A program made the translations under genes and the position numbers. From NCBI GenBank assembly GCA_903892415.1, contig CAITIQ010000317.1, positions 1 to 64,000 of the forward strand: a stretch of DNA of 64,000 nucleotides, in the 5' to 3' direction. This DNA is from an uncultured delta proteobacterium. GTDB lineage: Bacteria; Myxococcota_A; Polyangia; Polyangiales; Polyangiaceae. The notes beneath the pieces are model-generated. The model saw nothing but the letters and a program-made list of their open reading frames with translations. It had not been told where the DNA came from and searched no databases. Of this stretch, positions 9,575 to 61,049 are shown in pieces (position 1 is the first letter of the stretch; each line of letters opens with the position of its first letter).

Positions 9575-11776
9575 ATGATGCGCCTCTCTCGCTGGTCCTC
9601 CTTGTTGCTCGTGGCGTTGGCGAGCACCGGCTGCAGCCACGACAGTCGCTCCCGCTTCCCTTCCGCAGAGTCCCCGCTCGAACTCGAACGCGTCGTGCTT
9701 TACCGCAACGGCATCGGCTATTTCGAGCGGTCAGGGACGATCGACGGGAATGTGCTGACGCTCAAGGTTCGCAAAGATCAGATCAACGATCTGCTCAAGA
9801 GTTTGACCGTGGTCGAGCGAAAGTCAGGGCGCGCCGTCAGCGTTTCGATGCCGCTCGATCCGCAGTCTTGGGCTAACGCGGCTCTCGCGACGCTGCAGCC
9901 TGGTCGAGGGAACTTGGCGGAGGTGCTCGATGCCCTGCGCGGCACCGAGGTGACGCTCAGCACCAGCGACGGCACCCTCTCAGGCCGAATCGTGATGGTC
10001 GAGCCGCTCGAAGAAGCGCCTTCCGAAACGAACGGTTTGCGACCGATGCCAGCGCCGACACGCGATCACCGCATCACGCTGCTGGAAGGGGACGCGTTGC
10101 GAGTCACGAAGCTCTCTCGCGTGAAGGGCGTGCGCTTCAGCGACGGCGATCTCGCTATGCAGTTTGGTCGCACGCTGGACGCTAGCGCTGGTGAAGGCAT
10201 GTTCCAGCAGGTGCAGGTGTCGATTCGGCTCGAGGGCGCAAGCTCGCACGACCTGCTGGTCAGTTATGTGGCTGCGGCTCCGATGTGGAAGCCGACCTAT
10301 CGCGTCGTTTTGCCAAAGGCAGGCAAGGGGACCGCGCTCTTGCAAGGGTGGGCGGTGGTCGACAACACCAGCGGTGAAGATTGGAGCCAGGTTGCGCTCG
10401 GCCTTACCTCCGGGGCGCCCATCGCCTTCCGCTACGACCTCCATACCCCGCGCGATGTCGCTCGCTCCGACCTCACAGAGGTAGGCGTGCATCGGCAAGC
10501 GGCCGTGATGATGGGGGAGACCTCGTACGAGGAGGCGGAGGCCGAGCCGATGGCTCCGGCGGGAGCTGCGGCACCCAGCGTAGCCTGGGGCGCGTTCAAC
10601 AACGAAACGGACGAAGCCGAAGCCAAGCCGCGCGCAGATCGCCGCCCTGAGCCGCGCAAAAAGCTGGCGGAGGCTTATGGCGAAGCGCTCGAAGATCGCT
10701 TGGACCGCCCAGCGCTCGATCTCGAATCACTGCGCCGTTCAACGCAGAGCCAAGCGCGGGCCTCGGCCGTTTCAGGTCTGACCCGGTTTGACTTGGAGGG
10801 CAAGGTGACCGTGCCCGAGGGCACCTCGACCATGGTCGCGATCGTCAACTCGGAGGTGGAGGGCGAGGAGACCTTCCTGTTCCGTCCCGGCGGCGCCGGT
10901 CTCGGCTACGAGGCGAACCCGTATCGTGTAGTGCGCTTCAAGAACACCACGCCGTTCGTGCTCGAGCCCGGCCCGATCAGCATCTTCGCTGGCGGAAGCT
11001 TCGTCGGGGAGGGGCTCTCTGAAACGGTGGGCGCGGGGTCGAGCGCGACCGTGCCGTTCGCTGTCGAGACCGGCCTGATGGTGAGCTCGGTCAACAAGGA
11101 CGACCGCGAATCGATGCAATTGGTGAAGCTCTCCCGAGGCGTGCTGGAGGTCGAGCAGTTCGCCCGGCGAACAACCACCTACACCGTGAAGGCTCAGACC
11201 CTCGATACAGGTTTCACGTTGTTGGTCCGCCATCCAAAAACTGGCTTCAACTACGAGCTCTCGGAGCGACCCGAGGGAACCGAGGATCTCATTGACGGCT
11301 ATCTGGTCAAAGTGACGGTGGCGCCGGGGCAACGCGAAGGCTCGCTCACCCTCCGCGAGCAGACGCCCAGTCGGACCACGCTCAGCATCTGGTCCAAGCC
11401 CGCCCTCGAGTTGCTCGAGAAGCTGCTCATCCATGTCGAGTTGACCCCCGAGCTGAAGAAGCGCTTGCAGCCGATCGTCGACGGTCGCCGAGAGATCGGT
11501 CGACTCGACGAACAGCTCGAAGGACTCACGCAGAAGCGCAACCAGCTCGACCAGCGCTCCAATGAGTTGCGGGAGAACCTGCGTTCGATCGAGAAGAACC
11601 AACAAGCCACGCCACAAAGGCAAAAGTGGACCCGCCAGCTCGATGAGTTCACAAGCGAAGGCAACAAGCTCGGTGCGCAGCTCGCCGAGCTCGAGGCCAA
11701 GCGGCTGGACAAGCGAATGGAGCTCGAGGACCTATTGCAAGGGCTCGAGGTCGAGCCGCCGAAGCCCAAGAAGTGA
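9575..11776 (+). CDS. DUF4139 domain lipoprotein
   Basis: 733 residues starting at ATG 9575 (ATG 9578 equally possible), with a lipoprotein signal ending ALASTGC. The N-terminal block (VVLYRNGIGYFERSG, then KVRKDQINDLLKSLTVV) and the middle beta-rich part (WKPTYRVVLP, DNTSGEDWSQVALGL) match the DUF4139 family, whose members are envelope-associated with unknown biochemistry. Residues about 615-730 are a long heptad-patterned coiled coil (RREIGRLDEQLEGLTQKRNQ...). An acidic/Ala insertion near residues 310-390 probably forms a flexible loop. It sits 49 bp after the 766-aa gene and may be cotranscribed. Confidence 0.85.
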   Translation: MMRLSRWSSLLLVALASTGCSHDSRSRFPSAESPLELERVVLYRNGIGYFERSGTIDGNVLTLKVRKDQINDLLKSLTVVERKSGRAVSVSMPLDPQSWANAALATLQPGRGNLAEVLDALRGTEVTLSTSDGTLSGRIVMVEPLEEAPSETNGLRPMPAPTRDHRITLLEGDALRVTKLSRVKGVRFSDGDLAMQFGRTLDASAGEGMFQQVQVSIRLEGASSHDLLVSYVAAAPMWKPTYRVVLPKAGKGTALLQGWAVVDNTSGEDWSQVALGLTSGAPIAFRYDLHTPRDVARSDLTEVGVHRQAAVMMGETSYEEAEAEPMAPAGAAAPSVAWGAFNNETDEAEAKPRADRRPEPRKKLAEAYGEALEDRLDRPALDLESLRRSTQSQARASAVSGLTRFDLEGKVTVPEGTSTMVAIVNSEVEGEETFLFRPGGAGLGYEANPYRVVRFKNTTPFVLEPGPISIFAGGSFVGEGLSETVGAGSSATVPFAVETGLMVSSVNKDDRESMQLVKLSRGVLEVEQFARRTTTYTVKAQTLDTGFTLLVRHPKTGFNYELSERPEGTEDLIDGYLVKVTVAPGQREGSLTLREQTPSRTTLSIWSKPALELLEKLLIHVELTPELKKRLQPIVDGRREIGRLDEQLEGLTQKRNQLDQRSNELRENLRSIEKNQQATPQRQKWTRQLDEFTSEGNKLGAQLAELEAKRLDKRMELEDLLQGLEVEPPKPKK

Positions 11777-52195: not shown

Positions 52196-54397
52196 CTACT
52201 CGGTGATGTCCGACCCCATCATCGAGAGCAACACACCCGGGTTACCGTCGAGGAACTTCACCAAATCTGTGCCGTCGATGCGGTACGCCTGGCCCTTCTC
52301 CATGACATACGCGGTGTTACCGTGCAGGCGAGGGGTGCGTAACGCGTCGACGTCGGCAAACCAGGTGCCCGACTCAAACGGCTCGGGACGGCCACCTTCA
52401 CCCTCGATGATGATCTTGCCATCATCGATCAAGAAGCCTTGGGTGATGGGTTCGCCACGACGCCAGAGCACGTCGCCCTCTTTGAGCAACACCAGCTCGA
52501 GGTAGGTCTGCAGCTGCGTCTTCTGCGGACTGGAGAGTTGGCGTAGGGCACGGTTTTGCTCGAACAGCTCCCAGCTGCGAGCCTCGCGCGCTTTGGCCAG
52601 ACGGGCGAGTCGCATCGGGATGTCGGTGCCGCGCAGCAAGTAGAGGAAGGCGTGCCGGTCGAGCGTCAAAAGCTCCACGTTGGTGCGCGCGACAACGTCC
52701 GCCGTGCGCGGTTGGTTGAGCACCAATGCGGTCTCTCCGAAGTAGTCCCCCGAGTGGTAACTCTTCACGTAGTTGCCGTCCTTCATCACGCTCACCGAGC
52801 CTTGAACGATCACGAAGAACTCGTGACCCTCGGAGTGCTGCGCGATGATCTGTTGCTCCGGCCCAACGCGACGACGTTTGGCCAAGAGCAAGAGCTCGCG
52901 CGCTCTCGAAAGGGGGAGGTCGCGGAAGAAGTCGATCGAGCAGAAGACGTTGAAGACGTCGATGGCGTCGGCGTGGGCCGGCGTTTCAACCGCGATGCGT
53001 TTGGTGTGCTCGAGACCGACGTCGGCCGTCTTGAGTCCGCAATCCGGCGGTACGTCTTTCTTGGCGATGTGCACCAAGTAGAGCCGCTCCTTTACGTCGG
53101 GGGGCAAAGCCGCGAGCGGAGCAACGGGCGTATGCAGCGGCGGCACGCCCGCCTCGTGAAAGATCATCGAATGATGCCAGGGGAACCCCAAGAGTGCGTC
53201 GCGTCGGCCGGGCGAGATCACGCCGGTGTCGGCGAGGCGATTGATCTCGCTCGGGAGGTACAAAGTGTCCGACGAGAAGGCCAGGCTCTTACCGCCGTAG
53301 AAGGCCTCGAAGCCAATGGTTGGGATCGAGTGCAAGGTGTAGAAGAAGTAAAGCTCCGCCCCGTTGACCGAGGTGGGCTGGCCGATGCGTATCGGTTGGA
53401 AGGAGAAGGTTCGGCGCAGCTGATCCTCGGTGATGCCGCTCAAGGCCGAGTACTTCTTGAGGAAGGAGGCGAGGATGGTGGGCGTTGTGTAAAGCCGCGT
53501 GCGCCCTTCCTCGAGCAGTTTGGCGAACACGCCGCTGTCGTGGTCGGCGTGGCAGTGGGTGAGCACCACGCCATCGATCGTCTTGGGCATCACGCCGCTC
53601 TCACGCAGGTGTTGCGTGGTATCCACCGGCGGATCGATCAGGATGCCGCGCCGACCGATCCACAACAGGTAGCCGGTGGTCTTGCCGTTGGGATCGAAGC
53701 CGTGACTCGCCCCGAGCACGGTCAGCCCGAAGGCCGGCGGATCGAAGGCGACGACCCGTGCGCTCGAAGGCGTGACGCGGTCGGGGCACTCGACCACGGC
53801 GGGCGTGCGCGCCACCTCCACGCCGTCCACTTCGATCGCGTAGCTACCTGGCGGTGCCGCTTGCGGGTTCCGCATCGAGATGGGCGCGGCAGCGACCTTG
53901 GTGATGCGGAGGCGATGATCGATCACCGCGCCGAAGGTGCCGATCACGCAGAACTCCAATAGGTCGTCGACGTCACGGCAGCTGCCGTCGGGCCCGCGGC
54001 GAAAGTGATCGGTCTCGCGCGCAAAATCCGGACGCGCGTCGACTGGGATACTGTCCGCGAACTCCTCGTGGTTCGTTGGTCTGCGCGAACCAAAAAGAGA
54101 CTCTCGCATCATCGTGCGCAGGCGTTCCGCCGTCTCCTCCGACTCAACGACCACACGGGCTCGACGCTTGAGGATGAAGTAGTTGAAGTAAGCGGGGAAC
54201 TCGATCTCGGCCAAGGTCAGACCGCGACGACGATCGAAAAGATCCGGCGGAACCACGTAAACCGAAGCGACTGGGAGGCCGAGCGCCATCGAATCTTTGA
54301 TGGTTTCAGGCGGGACGCCGACCTGAACAGGGCCTGCCGGCGTCTTTACGTACACCCCGCCACGAGGCAGGCGCACAACTGCGGAGGGGTCGGGCAC
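52196..54397 (-). CDS. Metallo-beta-lactamase-fold protein fused to two cyclic-nucleotide-binding domains
   Basis: 733 residues. The first 200 residues are a little-characterised alpha/beta part. Residues about 220-420 are a metallo-beta-lactamase fold with the metal motif THCHADHD (281-287) and later ligands in FSSDTLYLP and near FPWHHSMIFHEAG. This could be a phosphodiesterase or other hydrolase. Residues about 492-600 are a cNMP-binding domain with cassette YFGETALVLNQPRTADV. A second, more degenerate one follows (about 625-720), lacking a clear cassette Arg. The layout suggests hydrolase activity gated by cyclic nucleotide. The substrate is not predictable. Confidence 0.82.
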   Translation of the reverse strand: MPDPSAVVRLPRGGVYVKTPAGPVQVGVPPETIKDSMALGLPVASVYVVPPDLFDRRRGLTLAEIEFPAYFNYFILKRRARVVVESEETAERLRTMMRESLFGSRRPTNHEEFADSIPVDARPDFARETDHFRRGPDGSCRDVDDLLEFCVIGTFGAVIDHRLRITKVAAAPISMRNPQAAPPGSYAIEVDGVEVARTPAVVECPDRVTPSSARVVAFDPPAFGLTVLGASHGFDPNGKTTGYLLWIGRRGILIDPPVDTTQHLRESGVMPKTIDGVVLTHCHADHDSGVFAKLLEEGRTRLYTTPTILASFLKKYSALSGITEDQLRRTFSFQPIRIGQPTSVNGAELYFFYTLHSIPTIGFEAFYGGKSLAFSSDTLYLPSEINRLADTGVISPGRRDALLGFPWHHSMIFHEAGVPPLHTPVAPLAALPPDVKERLYLVHIAKKDVPPDCGLKTADVGLEHTKRIAVETPAHADAIDVFNVFCSIDFFRDLPLSRARELLLLAKRRRVGPEQQIIAQHSEGHEFFVIVQGSVSVMKDGNYVKSYHSGDYFGETALVLNQPRTADVVARTNVELLTLDRHAFLYLLRGTDIPMRLARLAKAREARSWELFEQNRALRQLSSPQKTQLQTYLELVLLKEGDVLWRRGEPITQGFLIDDGKIIIEGEGGRPEPFESGTWFADVDALRTPRLHGNTAYVMEKGQAYRIDGTDLVKFLDGNPGVLLSMMGSDITE

Positions 54398-54438: not shown

Positions 54439-54996
54439 TTGCACGGTTTTGAAAAGACGCTGGAAAAGCAAGTTGGCTTGGTCCAGTTTGAGAGGGTGTC
54501 GGCCAACAAAGCGAGCGGGTCAAAAGAGGCGTCGGAGACGCGGCTGAAGTTTCGTTCGGCGGCCGAAGCGATCGAGCTATTGCGCTGGGATCAAGGCTTT
54601 GAACCGAGCGAGTTTTTCGTTGTTTGTGAGCAGGCCGAGGGGGTGGAGACGGTGCCGCTCGAGAGCTTCGAGCCGAACGGGGCGCGGTCGTGGTCGAGCG
54701 TGCGCGCGATTCTGCGCGGTGAGCGAAGCGTCTGGGATCGCGAGCTTGCATTTGACGGGCTCGACGAACAGCGAGGTCTAAAGGTGGAGCGGCCGCGCGC
54801 GCAGCGGGTTCGGCGGGTTGCAAAGCTGCGTTGTACCGTGTGCGGGCAGCCCTTCGAGACCGTGCCCGACGAAGGCGGCGCACGTACGCAAAGCTACGTC
54901 GAGGACTGCGCGGTGTGCTGTCGGCCGCACCGCGTCAACGCGCGCTTCGATGAGGAGCAGATGCGGTGGTTCATCGAGCTCGAGGCCGAGAGCTGA
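54439..54996 (+). CDS. CPXCG-motif cysteine-rich protein
   Basis: Up to 185 residues if TTG 54439 is used; TTG 54478 or GTG 54496 would shorten the N-terminus, and none has a strong ribosome-binding site. The last 60 residues form a CPXCG-type zinc-ribbon domain: CTVCGQPFETVPDEGG, then YVEDCAVCCRPHRVNARFD, with four metal-ligand cysteines. The N-terminal 120 residues are charged and not recognisable. Stand-alone CPXCG proteins are small; the longer N-terminal extension here is unusual. It ends 8 bp before the stop of the convergent uridine kinase gene. Confidence 0.75.
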   Translation: MHGFEKTLEKQVGLVQFERVSANKASGSKEASETRLKFRSAAEAIELLRWDQGFEPSEFFVVCEQAEGVETVPLESFEPNGARSWSSVRAILRGERSVWDRELAFDGLDEQRGLKVERPRAQRVRRVAKLRCTVCGQPFETVPDEGGARTQSYVEDCAVCCRPHRVNARFDEEQMRWFIELEAES

Positions 54997-55801: not shown

Positions 55802-57652
55802 ATGGACTTCGTCCCCGGCGCGGCCATCGCGGGAAAGTACCGCCTCAAACAGCTCGTTGGTGCGGGTGGCATGGGCGAGGTGTGGTCCGCTGAGGACATC
55901 CAGAAGCGGTCCAAGGTCGCGCTCAAGCACCTATTGCCGACCGCGGCGAAGCACCATGAAGTGGTCGCGCGGTTCAAACGTGAGGCCTATCTCCTCGGCA
56001 AGCTCGAGAGCCCCTACGTCGCGAAGGTTCGTGATTTCTTCGATGACGAGACGTTCGGCCTGGTGCTGGTCATGGACTTCATCGAGGGCCCTAGCCTGGC
56101 GTCGACACTCGAGGAGCGCACCCTAACGATCGAAGAAGCGATCGATCTTTCGGTGGACCTCCTGTGCGCGCTTTCGGATTTGCACGGGGCAAACATCGTT
56201 CACCGCGATCTCAAGCCCGGCAACATCATCATGCGACCGATGCCCGACGGCAGCACCCGCGCGATGGTGGTGGATTTCGGCATCTCGCGCTTGATCCCGT
56301 CGCAAGGAGAAGAGGTGACGGGGATCACCCGCGCCAACATCGCGCTCGGCACCGTGGAGTATATGGCGCCGGAGCAGATCTTGAACTCGCGCGATGTGAC
56401 GGCGGTTACCGATCTGTACGCGGTGGGAATCATTCTTTTCCGCGCGGTGAAAGGTCATCACGCCTTCGGCGAGCGCCGCGGGGAAGAGCTGGCTCGGGCG
56501 AAGTTGATTGAGGACGCTCCGGCGCTCACGTCGTCGCGGAAAGACGAGCTTGCGACGGGGCTGATCGCGATGGTCGCGCGGGCGCTGAAGAAGAAGCCGT
56601 CGCAGCGCTACGCAAGCGCGGCCGAGATGCTGCAGGTCGCGAAGGCGTTGCAAGTTCGGGCGCAAGAGCTGGCGGAGCTCGAGGACACAACCACCGACGG
56701 TGGAAGAACCGCGGTGAAGCTCGCGCCGGTCAACCTTCAGGCCGAGCGTCCGCGTCCACCGAACCCGCGCCCCGCTGCAGGTCGTCCAGCTTCGACGGCG
56801 CCAGCCGCCGCCCCACCGAAAGCGGCGTCGCCCGCTGCCAGCAGCGCGCCCGGGGCGAAACCACAGGTTCGAGCCGACCAGCCGAGCAACGGGTCGCTCG
56901 CGCCAGAGGCGACACGCGCAACCAGCTCCAAAGAAGAAGCGCCAGTCGTTGCCCGACCTTCTGCGCCGCGGGCGCCGCTGTCCTCCGTCCCGGAGATCCT
57001 TCCGATCGGTCGGGCTCCCGCGGAATCGCGCCCAGCGCCGCGAGCACCACTGCCGTCCTTTGGCGACGGAGCGCTGCCGGACTTTGAGCCGCGCCGCTCG
57101 CTGCCCGAGATCAGCGCTCATTCGATGGCCGCCGCTCAGGCTCCGGCCGCACCGCCGCCAGCGCCGCCCGCCGCCGATGAGCGCCGCGGAGTGGTTCTGC
57201 CGGTGGGCATGCTCGTGCTTGGCTTTGTCACCACCTTGGCGGTGGGCGCAGTACTCGGGTTGGCAGTTGCTCCGCGCGCACCCGCCGAATGTGAGCCGGC
57301 GGCCACGTCGGCGCCCGCCCCTAGCGAGGCGGTCGGAGAATGCAAACCAACTGCGACCCAAGCCCCAGCGCTGACCGCGACGGCCTCGGCCGATCCAGCG
57401 GACTCATTCGAGATCGTTGAGACGCCTTCGGCAGCTCCCTCGACCAAAGCCTCGGCCAAGGCGAGCTCCAAGCCGGTGGTCAGCAGCAAGCCCGTTACCA
57501 CGACCGCGCCAACCGCCGCTCCCGCCACTCCAACCGCGACGGCGACGTCGGCGCCAGCTCCGACCGCGACTGGCGCGCCGACGGCTGCTGCGACCGCGAC
57601 GACGACTAGCCCTCCGACCAAACCGCCGGTGCCTCCGGTCGACGGGCTTTGA
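55802..57652 (+). CDS. Transmembrane Ser/Thr protein kinase
   Basis: 616 residues. The Hanks-type kinase domain spans about residues 10-285, with Gly-loop LVGAGGMGEVW, Lys in VALKHLL, catalytic loop IVHRDLKPGNIIM, VVDFGIS in place of DFGLA, and APE in YMAPEQIL. All catalytic residues are present. A Pro/Ala-rich linker (about 310-455) leads to one TM segment (about 462-485: VGMLVLGFVTTLAVGAVLGLAVA). An Ala/Thr/Pro-rich extracytoplasmic tail without a recognised fold follows. 47 bp downstream lies a gene for an FHA-PP2C phosphatase, the natural counter-enzyme. Confidence 0.9.
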   Translation: MDFVPGAAIAGKYRLKQLVGAGGMGEVWSAEDIQKRSKVALKHLLPTAAKHHEVVARFKREAYLLGKLESPYVAKVRDFFDDETFGLVLVMDFIEGPSLASTLEERTLTIEEAIDLSVDLLCALSDLHGANIVHRDLKPGNIIMRPMPDGSTRAMVVDFGISRLIPSQGEEVTGITRANIALGTVEYMAPEQILNSRDVTAVTDLYAVGIILFRAVKGHHAFGERRGEELARAKLIEDAPALTSSRKDELATGLIAMVARALKKKPSQRYASAAEMLQVAKALQVRAQELAELEDTTTDGGRTAVKLAPVNLQAERPRPPNPRPAAGRPASTAPAAAPPKAASPAASSAPGAKPQVRADQPSNGSLAPEATRATSSKEEAPVVARPSAPRAPLSSVPEILPIGRAPAESRPAPRAPLPSFGDGALPDFEPRRSLPEISAHSMAAAQAPAAPPPAPPAADERRGVVLPVGMLVLGFVTTLAVGAVLGLAVAPRAPAECEPAATSAPAPSEAVGECKPTATQAPALTATASADPADSFEIVETPSAAPSTKASAKASSKPVVSSKPVTTTAPTAAPATPTATATSAPAPTATGAPTAAATATTTSPPTKPPVPPVDGL

Positions 57653-57699
57653 TCCCTTTCCCCTCAGAATAAATCAAGGATCGGTTAAGGTCGTCGGCG

Positions 57700-59373
57700 A
57701 TGGCATGGCTCGTCGCACTCGACGGCGGCTTCTCCGGCAAGCGTTTCGTTCTTGAAACGACGTTCCTGGTCGGGCGCGGACCGTTCAACCACTTGGTGCT
57801 CGATGACTCAACGATCTCGAGGCAGCACGCCAAAGTTGCGCCGGAGGGAGGCACGCACGTCGCCTATGACCTCGGCAGCGCCAACGGGACGTTCGTCAAT
57901 AACCAGCTGATCAAGCGGCAAGTACTCAGTGCCGGCGACGAAGTTCGTTTCGGCCCGTTTCGCTTCCGCTTCGAGGTGGCCTTCAATGAAGACCTGGCGC
58001 TGCGCGGGCGCGGAAAGGTGGAGGAGGTAACAAGGCTCGGGTTCGAGGTGCCTTCCAAGATCGTCGGTGAAGTTGACGCACAGTCGAATCACACCCTGAT
58101 CGCGACCGGTGGTTTGGCCGAGCTCGAAGAGTCGGAACGAAGGCTTCGAACGCTGTTTTCGTTCGTTCACGCGATCGCCGCGACGCTCGACGCTGATGCG
58201 CTGCTCAACTTGATCGTCGCTAACTTGTTTGAGGCCTTTCCGCGTGCTCGAGTCGCTGCGGTCTACACGCTGGATGAGCCCACGGGGGCGATGGAGCCTC
58301 TGCGGACCGAGCAGCGTGAGGGCGGCGTGTTGCCGAGTTCGCCGCTCCCGGCCGAGCTTTACACCGAGCTCGTCATGCGCGGAAAGGCACTGCTCTCGGT
58401 GCCGTTCTCGCTCGATATGGGCGAGGAGATGCTCGAGTCTGGACCGCGCTCAAAGCGTGCCGATGCGATGGTGATGCATGCCCCGATGGTCTACCGCGGC
58501 AACGTGCTCGGGGTGCTCAACGTGCGCGGCGAACCGGGGGAGACCTTCTCGCAAGGGGACCTTGATTTGCTCGCGGCGCTGGCTTCGCACACGGGCATCG
58601 CCCTGCAGAACGCTCGCCTTCACCAGCAGTCGTTGGTGCAACAAAGGTTGCAACGCGATCTCACCGTGGCGCAGCAGATTCAGAAGAGCTTCTTGCCCTT
58701 GAGTTTGCCGCGTCCACCCGGCATTTCATTCAACGCCGACTACAAGCCGGCGCTGGCCATCGGCGGGGATTTTTACGATGTCTTTTGGCTGACCCACGAT
58801 CGCATTGGCTGCACGATCGGAGACGTCTCCGGGAAGGGCGTTTCCGCCGCGTTGGTCATGGCGCGGGTCTCGAGCGATTTGCGCACTGCGCTCGTGACCG
58901 AAGCAACGCCGGCGCTGGCCATGGCGCAGGCGAATCGAGAGCTGTGCGCGCGCGGGCAACACGATATCTTCGTCACGGCTGTGGCGCTCGTGCTCGAGGT
59001 TTCGACGCGCAAGGTGACGCTGGCCAACGCGGGTCATATGCCCCCCTACGTTCGACAGCGCGAAGAGGGCCGGCTGCTACGCATCGACGCCGGGGCCAGC
59101 TCTCCATTGGGCCTCTTCGCTGACCTACCCTTCGTCGAAACGACGATTCAACTGCAGTCGGGAGATGCGTTGGTGTTAACCACCGACGGCGTGCACGAGG
59201 CCACCAACACGCGCGAGGAACAGCTGGGGTTCGAGGGCGTCGAACGGGCCCTCGCTGGCGGCTCGAGTGAGGCGGCGGCGCTCGCTGCGCGGCTGCTTGC
59301 CGCGGTGAAAGCTCATGCCGCGGGTTGCGACCAATACGACGATTTGACGTTGCTGATCTGCGGAGTCGAATGA
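57700..59373 (+). CDS. FHA-GAF-PP2C (SpoIIE-type) phosphatase
   Basis: 557 residues. The N-terminal FHA domain has VGRGPFNHLVLDDSTISRQHA and LGSANGTFVNN, the phosphothreonine-binding residues. A GAF domain occupies about 145-320 (HAIAATLDADALLNLIVANLF, GVLNVRGEPGETFSQGDLDLLAALASHTG). The C-terminal SpoIIE/PP2C phosphatase has IGGDFYDVF, GDVSGKGVSAALVMA and VLTTDGVHEATN, with its metal-binding aspartates. It would bind phosphorylated Thr through FHA and dephosphorylate a partner, probably with the kinase encoded just upstream. Its TGA overlaps the start of the MscS gene as ATGA, a sign of coupled expression. Confidence 0.9.
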   Translation: MAWLVALDGGFSGKRFVLETTFLVGRGPFNHLVLDDSTISRQHAKVAPEGGTHVAYDLGSANGTFVNNQLIKRQVLSAGDEVRFGPFRFRFEVAFNEDLALRGRGKVEEVTRLGFEVPSKIVGEVDAQSNHTLIATGGLAELEESERRLRTLFSFVHAIAATLDADALLNLIVANLFEAFPRARVAAVYTLDEPTGAMEPLRTEQREGGVLPSSPLPAELYTELVMRGKALLSVPFSLDMGEEMLESGPRSKRADAMVMHAPMVYRGNVLGVLNVRGEPGETFSQGDLDLLAALASHTGIALQNARLHQQSLVQQRLQRDLTVAQQIQKSFLPLSLPRPPGISFNADYKPALAIGGDFYDVFWLTHDRIGCTIGDVSGKGVSAALVMARVSSDLRTALVTEATPALAMAQANRELCARGQHDIFVTAVALVLEVSTRKVTLANAGHMPPYVRQREEGRLLRIDAGASSPLGLFADLPFVETTIQLQSGDALVLTTDGVHEATNTREEQLGFEGVERALAGGSSEAAALAARLLAAVKAHAAGCDQYDDLTLLICGVE

Positions 59374-61049
59374 TGCGGCGAGGAGTTTGGCTCTGCTCCT
59401 GGGCCATCGCGCTCGGGGCTTTGGTGGCGATCCCGACGCAGACGGTCTTTGGTCAGACCGCTACCGCCTCGGCCGAGGTGAAGCCGCCCAAGCCGGCCAG
59501 CAGTAGCAGCAGCGCAAGCGCTTCGGTCAAGGTAGCCGACCCCGCAACCGTCTCGACGCCACGACGCAGTTTGAGCGCCTTTTTGCGCGCCTGCGAAGCG
59601 AAGGACTTCGTCAAGGCGGCCGAGTTCTTGGATCTGCGGGGGCTACCGCGAGGTAAGGACACACGCGAGGGCCCCGAGCTCGCCGCTCTGCTCCACCGCA
59701 TCATCGTCACGCGCATCAACGTCGACTTCGAGGAGCTCCCCGATGAACCTGCGCCGAGCACGATCGGCAGCGAGGGACTGACCCTCGATCGCCTCGACGT
59801 CGAGGACAGCTCGCACTCGATTGTGCTCGTGCCGGTCAAGTTGCCCACCGGCGAAACGCGTTGGCAGTTCTCCCGCTCCACGGTGGCCTCGATCCGTCCC
59901 GTCTTCGAGGCGACACAGAAGCGCGTGGTCGAGGAGGCCGTTCCGGCCTGGTTGAAGCAGCGGACGTACGTATTTCTGTATCTGTGGCAGTGGCTCGGAT
60001 TGCTGCTCGCGGCGGGGTTCTCGTACCTGATCGGTCGGGTCTTTGGCGGGCTGACGACGCGACTGGCTACGCGTGCGCTCAGCTCGGTGTGGAGCGGGGC
60101 CGCGGTCAGTGTTCGCTCCCTCGCGCGGCCAGCGCGGCTCGCGCTCGCTACTGCGGCCTTTCAGCTGGGCCTGCCGTTTCTGCTACTGCCCGCGCAATTT
60201 GCGGCCTTCTTCGAGCGTGCTTCCTCGATTCTGTACGTGATCGCCGCGGCGTGGAGCGCGGTGCTGCTGGTGCGAGTGGCCACGCAAGCGTGGGAAGAGC
60301 GCCTTCCGGAAGACACGCAAGGTGAGCACGATAACCGCGCCCTGCTCACGCGGCTGACGATGGTGCGTCGCATCGCGACCGTGGTGGTCACGCTGGTCGC
60401 CGCTGGCGTGATCCTGCTGCAGTTCGAGATCGTACGGAACGTTGGGCTTTCACTGCTGGCTTCAGCAGGTATCGCCGGCGTCCTTGTCGGCATCGCGGCG
60501 CAGCGGACGCTCTCGGGGCTGATCGCTGGGGTCGAACTTTCGATCACGCAACCGGTGCGCATCGGCGACACCGTGGTCTTTCGGCCGGGGGAGGTGGGGA
60601 CCGTGGAGCACGTGTTCTTCACCTACGTCGTCGTGCGTTTGTGGGACGATCGACGCTTGATCGTGCCGGTCACGCGCGTGATGTCGGAGCCGTTCGAGAA
60701 CTGGACGCGCAGCGGCTCGGACTTGCTTGCGCCGGTGGACATCTACGCCGATCTCGAGGTGCCCGTCGGGCCGTTGCGCGAGGCGTTCGAGAAGTTGTGC
60801 CAGCAAAGCAAACTTTGGGATCAGCGCAGCTCGGTCGTGGAGGTCGTCGAGATGACCGACCGCGTGCTCAAGATTCGCGGGACGGCCTCGGTTGACGCTG
60901 CGTCCAAGGCGTACGCCCTCAAGTGCGAACTGCGCGAGGGCTGGGTCAACTTTCTCCGCGAACTCGAGGGTGGGCGTTACCTGCCGCTAACCCGGGTGCG
61001 CTCGCTGGAAGCGGAATCAGAAGAGGAGACGAAGCCGGTCGCGCGTTGA
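59370..61049 (+). CDS. MscS-family mechanosensitive channel
   Basis: About 559 residues from ATG 59370, which overlaps the phosphatase stop (ATG 59373 is also possible). There is a signal-like N-terminus, then a Ser/Ala-rich stretch and a periplasmic alpha/beta domain of about 150 residues. Four or five TM segments follow (LGLLLAAGFSYLIGRVF, LGLPFLLLPAQFAAFF, ILYVIAAAWSAVLLV, ATVVVTLVAAGVILLQF). The MscS pore helix and beta domain come last (AGIAGVLVGIAAQRTLSGLIAGVEL, VRIGDTVVF, VRLWDDRRLIVP). Family members release solutes when membrane tension rises. The large periplasmic N-terminal domain suggests ligand or envelope sensing. Confidence 0.88.
   Translation: MMRRGVWLCSWAIALGALVAIPTQTVFGQTATASAEVKPPKPASSSSSASASVKVADPATVSTPRRSLSAFLRACEAKDFVKAAEFLDLRGLPRGKDTREGPELAALLHRIIVTRINVDFEELPDEPAPSTIGSEGLTLDRLDVEDSSHSIVLVPVKLPTGETRWQFSRSTVASIRPVFEATQKRVVEEAVPAWLKQRTYVFLYLWQWLGLLLAAGFSYLIGRVFGGLTTRLATRALSSVWSGAAVSVRSLARPARLALATAAFQLGLPFLLLPAQFAAFFERASSILYVIAAAWSAVLLVRVATQAWEERLPEDTQGEHDNRALLTRLTMVRRIATVVVTLVAAGVILLQFEIVRNVGLSLLASAGIAGVLVGIAAQRTLSGLIAGVELSITQPVRIGDTVVFRPGEVGTVEHVFFTYVVVRLWDDRRLIVPVTRVMSEPFENWTRSGSDLLAPVDIYADLEVPVGPLREAFEKLCQQSKLWDQRSSVVEVVEMTDRVLKIRGTASVDAASKAYALKCELREGWVNFLRELEGGRYLPLTRVRSLEAESEEETKPVAR

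Follow-up and report, generated by a model that had tools for sequence, protein, structure and literature searches.

The window analysed here is a 64,000-nucleotide stretch of an uncultured member of the Polyangiaceae (contig CAITIQ010000317.1, here C317 of the 10.85-Mb draft genome G000). It encodes three adjacent genes, for a Hanks-type Ser/Thr kinase, a phosphatase with FHA, GAF and SpoIIE domains, and a channel of the MscS family. We lean, with moderate confidence, towards a system in which the kinase works together with an FHA-gated, RsbU-type partner-switching phosphatase that acts on the STAS protein of a polysaccharide locus, and in which the MscS channel is a co-translated, genus-level addition. 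The kinase and the phosphatase constitute the core of this system, because the two genes are paired without the channel in a second genus and the orthologues of the channel stand alone elsewhere. The comparison covers the other two species of the genus, Polyangiaceae Bin8.16 (G001) and Myxococcales MAG-87 (G002), and G032, a member of a second genus in the same family; the genomes of the window's genus are drafts. The features of the cluster are as follows.

55802..57652, + strand: Hanks-type Ser/Thr kinase, 616 aa, with a cytosolic kinase domain (residues 13-278), a low-complexity linker, a hydrophobic span (471-489) and a Pro/Ala/Thr-rich tail (Pfam, hydropathy, motifs).
56684..56716, + strand: short juxtamembrane motif D-T-T-T-D-G-G-R-T-A-V in the kinase linker, residues 295-305 (sequence comparison; weak).
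57653..57699, + strand: gap of 47 bp between kinase and phosphatase (84 bp in G001, 163 bp in G002, 136 bp in G032).
57700..59373, + strand: FHA-GAF-SpoIIE phosphatase of the RsbU type, 557 aa, with FHA (23-85), a disordered linker (96-138), GAF (163-303) and SpoIIE (367-555) (Pfam, AlphaFold2, Foldseek).
58021..58032, + strand: E108-x-x-T111 within the linker of the phosphatase; its Thr is the lone conserved one and a candidate both for phosphorylation by the kinase and for binding in cis by the FHA domain (column conservation).
59370..59373, + strand: ATGA overlap of the phosphatase stop and the channel start (in G001 and G002, the two genes are instead 3 and 5 bp apart).
59370..61049, + strand: MscS-family channel, with a signal-like N-terminus, a presumed extracytoplasmic N-terminal domain and the MscS core (Pfam, phmmer, alignment of 15 relatives).

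The open reading frames bear out what the sequence-only reading had described of this layout, including the positions of the three genes, the 47-bp gap and the ATGA overlap. The mechanically called frame of the channel begins at a TTG codon (59325), and ATG 59370 (or 59373) is the plausible start. A scan for promoters and terminators across the cluster, including the 47-bp gap, gave no site above chance.

The phosphatase is assigned to the SpoIIE phosphatase family by its match to PF07228 (E 1.8e-42, 145.9 bits against a cut-off of 25). No classical PP2C domain (PF00481/PF13672) was matched by Pfam in this protein at E 0.01. Classical PP2C enzymes are the usual opponents of Hanks kinases. The earlier description of the enzyme as a PP2C phosphatase therefore holds at the level of the superfamily and has to be replaced by SpoIIE/RsbU at the level of the subclass. 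The metal-binding residues D357, D375, D496 and D547/D548 are invariant in 19 phosphatase sequences. In the AlphaFold2 model (mean pLDDT 82.6), the predicted phosphatase part is matched best by Foldseek to SpoIIE, Pseudomonas RssB, the RsbU domain of Rv1364c and SiaA. The FHA part is matched to GarA/OdhI and, where the two can be aligned, shares ~40-44% identity with GarA. Both sensor domains of the earlier description were confirmed by Pfam (FHA, E 9.1e-18; GAF, E 3e-10), and the residues that read phosphothreonine (G25, R26, S40, H43, N62 and G63) are all present. These residues are invariant or nearly invariant among the relatives, even in those without an adjacent kinase, suggesting that phosphothreonine reading is part of the general design of this phosphatase.

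The gene neighbourhoods of the relatives, which were collected by a scan of 84,980 species and by whole-genome searches followed by reading of the flanks, point to a STAS protein as the partner of the phosphatase. The Myxococcota relatives lie in polysaccharide loci and adjoin a STAS gene; genes for an RsbW-like protein (HATPase_c_2) and a sugar transferase (Bac_transf) usually accompany it, and Pfam confirms the three domains in representative neighbours. The linkage to STAS was observed at five g5-type loci (L079-L082 and L085; the g5 genomes were read directly as L157-L160), and in the two f6 genomes, G041 (L060) and G055 (L061), and the STAS gene lies immediately upstream of the phosphatase in L076 and L077. 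The tree places the window phosphatase among 12 sequences that form a clade (100/99) of both kinase-linked and STAS-linked members; the next outgroup of this clade, L060/L061, is linked to STAS and RsbW. The simplest reading of this topology is that linkage to STAS came first and that the neighbourhood with the kinase arose later. The Planctomycete loci read were uninformative: they show no kinase and no RsbW-like gene beside the phosphatase, and one of them has a STAS-containing open reading frame ~1.2 kb from it. Three Planctomycete relatives (L084, L088 and L107) carry clpS-like genes shortly after the phosphatase, with no kinase nearby. An Acidobacteria locus (L112:2567-8727) places an FHA-GAF-SpoIIE gene near genes for a Ser/Thr kinase and a PP2C of classical appearance and near a further FHA stretch, and is apparently an independent kinase neighbourhood.

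The kinase proved to be a complete transmembrane Ser/Thr kinase, as had been proposed. It matches Pkinase in Pfam (E 4.8e-40), the VALK, HRDLKPGN and DFG motifs are all intact, and hydropathy reveals a single hydrophobic span at residues 471-489. K42, HRD136, D158FG and the activation-loop residues T173/T176 are unchanged across four kinase orthologues. The protein is not a PASTA kinase of the PknB/PrkC kind: no PASTA repeats were detected in it, its tail is of low complexity, and its score against NF033483 (206.8 bits) is far short of the 450-bit cut-off for a PASTA-kinase assignment. Its association with the phosphatase extends beyond the genus. In G032, the two genes are adjacent, separated by 136 bp and kept in the same order and orientation, without the channel and without the flanking genes. 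This adjacency in a second, non-syntenic genus argues for the pairing of the kinase with the phosphatase.

The genes that accompany the phosphatase in other Myxococcota are also present in the genomes that carry this pair. Orthologous sugar transferase, RsbW-like and STAS genes were found in G000, G001, G002 and G032, located away from the phosphatase (on C201 in G001, on C151 in G002, and on C255 in G032, ~14 kb from the kinase-phosphatase pair). In G000, glycosyltransferase and Wzz-like genes follow the STAS gene. No SpoIIE gene was found in the module stretches read of these four genomes. Of 15 module regions of at most 20 kb that were sampled elsewhere in the family, 10 contain a SpoIIE phosphatase, several of them fused to FHA; a random scatter of five such genes per 10 Mb would lead one to expect about 0.15 of the 15 regions to do so. 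In G002, which is 98% complete, the single SpoIIE gene detected at E 1e-8 is the phosphatase beside the kinase. Among 108 genomes of the family, the STAS protein is present in 32 and the RsbW-like protein in 35, and all eight phosphatase-positive genomes carry both (chance at genome level 3e-5, relatedness ignored). The I-D-S-[ST]-G motif, which bears the phosphoserine in SpoIIAA/RsbV, is kept in 13 STAS proteins. The spacing of S55/K66/R67/Q83 in the G000 STAS protein equals that of S56/K67/R68/Q84 in SypA. In Sorangium-like genomes and other Polyangia (L254, L255, L256, L265 and L267), a SpoIIE phosphatase, mostly fused to FHA, lies in or near a sugar transferase-RsbW-STAS module.

Domains, residues, conservation and gene context are read directly from the DNA, and from them we infer every phosphorylation and dephosphorylation step of the following scheme, as well as the control of polysaccharide. 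The kinase would autophosphorylate, phosphorylate the phosphatase, or both, with T111 in the phosphatase linker as the most plausible site. The FHA domain would bind phosphorylated T111, or the kinase activation loop in the way that GarA binds PknB, and this binding may set or localise the activity of the phosphatase, with the GAF domain providing a second signal. The phosphatase would strip the phosphate from the conserved DS[ST]G serine of the polysaccharide-locus STAS protein and so activate this protein, in opposition to the RsbW-like kinase. Polysaccharide output would then be under the control of the STAS protein, much as biofilm elsewhere among bacteria is under that of SypA and SiaC.

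The most specific form of this scheme concerns the phosphatase linker. E108, T111 and E116 are the sole conserved columns between residues 96 and 138, each kept in 11 of 12 Myxococcota sequences. In GarA/OdhI, the FHA domain binds a threonine of its own protein once a kinase has phosphorylated it, and by analogy T111 is the best candidate for the FHA ligand. A GarA-like intramolecular clamp, in which the kinase phosphorylates T111, the FHA domain of the same protein binds the phosphorylated residue and the polysaccharide-locus STAS switch flips, is put forward tentatively as one possible outcome. The juxtamembrane TT[TS]D motif of the kinase was also considered as an FHA ligand. This motif (residues 295-305) is kept within the genus only, and since it is missing from the G032 kinase, it was retained as a weak candidate phospho-docking site.

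Several observations weigh against a phosphatase that is driven by this kinase and acts on the STAS protein. Within the genus, the STAS module does not adjoin the phosphatase. In G000, the STAS gene is on C373 (L176) and the RsbW-like and sugar transferase genes are on C569 (L177); STAS and RsbW-like genes are neighbours in most relatives read, and their separation here reflects either a rearrangement or a binning or assembly fault. A second FHA-SpoIIE phosphatase, of the type found within the module of Sorangium-like genomes, is encoded in G000 (C57) and G001 (C121), and this enzyme could be the cognate phosphatase of the module in these two genomes; no gene of this type is among the SpoIIE matches of G002 and G032. 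Counted by genus, the co-occurrence with the STAS and RsbW-like proteins is weak (3/3 within 18/48, about 0.05). Kinase relatives with 51-60% identity are present in genomes without the phosphatase, indicating that the kinase family does not serve this enzyme exclusively. Finally, the T111 clamp and the contact between kinase and FHA domain are predictions from sequence alone.

It is also conceivable, if unlikely, that the phosphatase directly reverses the phosphorylations made by the kinase, like PrpC with PrkC or PstP with PknB, and that the FHA domain is a docking device. The adjacency of kinase and phosphatase in two genera would fit such antagonism, as would the GarA-like FHA domain, GarA being the partner of PknB in a solved complex. 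However, pairs of this kind use a classical PP2C enzyme (PF00481/PF13672) and the enzyme here is of the SpoIIE type, while relatives with an equivalent FHA domain adjoin STAS genes without a kinase neighbour. The survey of the myxobacterial phosphatome likewise does not regard SpoIIE-like enzymes as clear opponents of Hanks kinases; it describes the co-organisation of kinase and phosphatase genes in myxobacteria as extremely low and leaves SpoIIE-like opposition to these kinases undecided (PMC2887360).

More doubtful still is the absence of any functional link, in which the genes have separate roles and are held together by backbone synteny, with the kinase placed there by chance. Kinase genes are very frequent in G000 (~310 first-look candidates with a kinase-domain query), the entire region is syntenic within the genus, and relatives of the kinase stand alone elsewhere. 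Against this, kinase and phosphatase keep their order in G032, which does not share the flanking genes, and the phosphatase and the channel lie within 5 bp of each other in three species at ~51-65% protein identity.

The third gene of the cluster was placed in the MscS family by its match to PF00924 (MS_channel_2nd; E 9e-12, 45.4 bits against a cut-off of 20.2), the mark of an MscS beta domain downstream of the pore-lining TM3, and by phmmer matches to the solved MscS and YnaI chains. Hydropathy indicates a signal-like span at residues 5-23. An AlphaFold2 model of the channel, built with two sequences, reached a pLDDT of 50 and was not used. Many other genera have orthologues of the channel at 33-41% identity, none of which adjoins the phosphatase or the orthologous kinase. 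In an alignment of 15 relatives, the conserved Ser/Thr residues of the channel are common to orthologues without the kinase-phosphatase pair, and the C-terminal tail varies. The reading frame of the G001 channel (L073:9666-10274) is interrupted by a TAA codon at 10272-10274 and is open beyond it, which reflects either gene decay or a draft-assembly error.

The kinase, phosphatase and channel genes follow one another in identical order in G000, G001 and G002, the three species of the genus. The order is thus not unique to this genome, and its recurrence in both other species indicates that it is not an accident of the assembly of the window. The spacing between the phosphatase and the channel is -4, +3 and +5 bp, respectively. 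The expectation of a conserved three-gene order is borne out within the genus and goes no further, and the trio lies inside an eight-gene block whose order and orientation are kept in all three species. The other genes of this block are a metallo-beta-lactamase/cyclic-nucleotide (cNMP) gene, a uridine kinase gene, an ATP-grasp-like gene, a DUF455 gene and a GDSL gene. Because the whole block is conserved, the order of the trio does not provide independent evidence of a shared function. In the window, the first of these genes (52196-54397) encodes a metallo-beta-lactamase fold fused to two cyclic-nucleotide-binding domains and is 73-74% identical within the genus. A CPXCG-type gene is located at 54439-54996; in both sister species, this position between the uridine kinase and the cNMP protein is taken by an MFS transporter.

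The proposal of the sequence-only reading, that kinase and phosphatase together determine how far the channel or a partner is phosphorylated and couple phospho-signalling to membrane tension, is the least probable of the explanations: the order of the trio and its near-overlap in three species agree with it, but this order belongs to the conserved block, the G032 pair lacks the channel, channel orthologues in many genera have neither partner beside them, the subclass and the relatives of the phosphatase indicate STAS proteins, the conserved Ser/Thr residues do not follow the pair, the tail is variable, and the G001 channel contains an in-frame stop. As a substrate of the phosphatase, MscS was rejected because of the phylogenetic context, the phosphatase subclass and the lack of a site pointing to it. 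The channel is probably a co-translated companion at the level of the genus, co-expressed for a shared role in the envelope.

The favoured partner switch acting on a STAS protein resembles the RsbU-RsbV-RsbW and SpoIIE-SpoIIAA-SpoIIAB systems of Bacillus in its SpoIIE domain with intact metal-binding Asp residues, in its N-terminal sensor and in the STAS and RsbW-like partners, which are encoded in the same genome and adjoin most Myxococcota relatives. In contrast to these systems, the window phosphatase has a GarA-like FHA domain and adjoins a Hanks kinase rather than its STAS/RsbW partners, and no sigma factor was noticed in the module regions read. The SypA/SypE system of Vibrio fischeri and the SiaA/SiaB/SiaC system of Pseudomonas also balance a STAS-type protein between a kinase and a phosphatase. 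In Vibrio fischeri, SypE phosphorylates S56 of SypA, and biofilm depends on K67 and R68 (PMC4517449). The SypA-like spacing of the STAS residues and the location of the module within a polysaccharide locus are shared with this system; unlike the arrangement here, SypE combines the kinase and phosphatase activities in one protein. SiaA, whose phosphatase domain is among the top fold matches of the window phosphatase, dephosphorylates SiaC, a protein similar to anti-sigma-factor antagonists, and thereby controls biofilm (PMC7647112). The window phosphatase differs from both systems in its fusion to FHA and GAF and, within the genus, in the location of its gene beside that of a Hanks kinase and apart from the module.

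The mycobacterial PknB/GarA/PstP system shares with the cluster a single-span Hanks kinase, a PknB-like activation loop and a GarA-like FHA domain, whereas the window kinase lacks PASTA repeats and its FHA partner is fused to a phosphatase of the SpoIIE type. Fusion of FHA to a SpoIIE phosphatase is already on record for Sorangium, for example in sce0876 (PMC2887360). The Sorangium proteins resemble the separate branch of the C57 enzyme of G000; genes of this second type sit in the equivalent STAS module in Sorangium-like genomes, and no kinase gene was seen beside those read. Within a partial coverage of the literature, no paper was found that combines MscS with Ser/Thr kinases, and none that combines FHA, RsbU, partner switching and Hanks-type kinases, both of which are weak negatives. 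On the same partial coverage, no paper was seen to describe a Hanks kinase combined with an FHA-GAF-SpoIIE phosphatase and tied to a SypA-like STAS module.

The Hanks-type kinases of a myxobacterium can number in the hundreds, and their outputs are mostly unknown. The locus described here is a small, concrete system, with named residues, in which a Hanks kinase may feed an exopolysaccharide partner switch. If the clamp at T111 is true, Hanks kinases and partner switching would be joined through a single protein, and this would be a general design in the Polyangia, where several FHA-SpoIIE genes sit in such modules.

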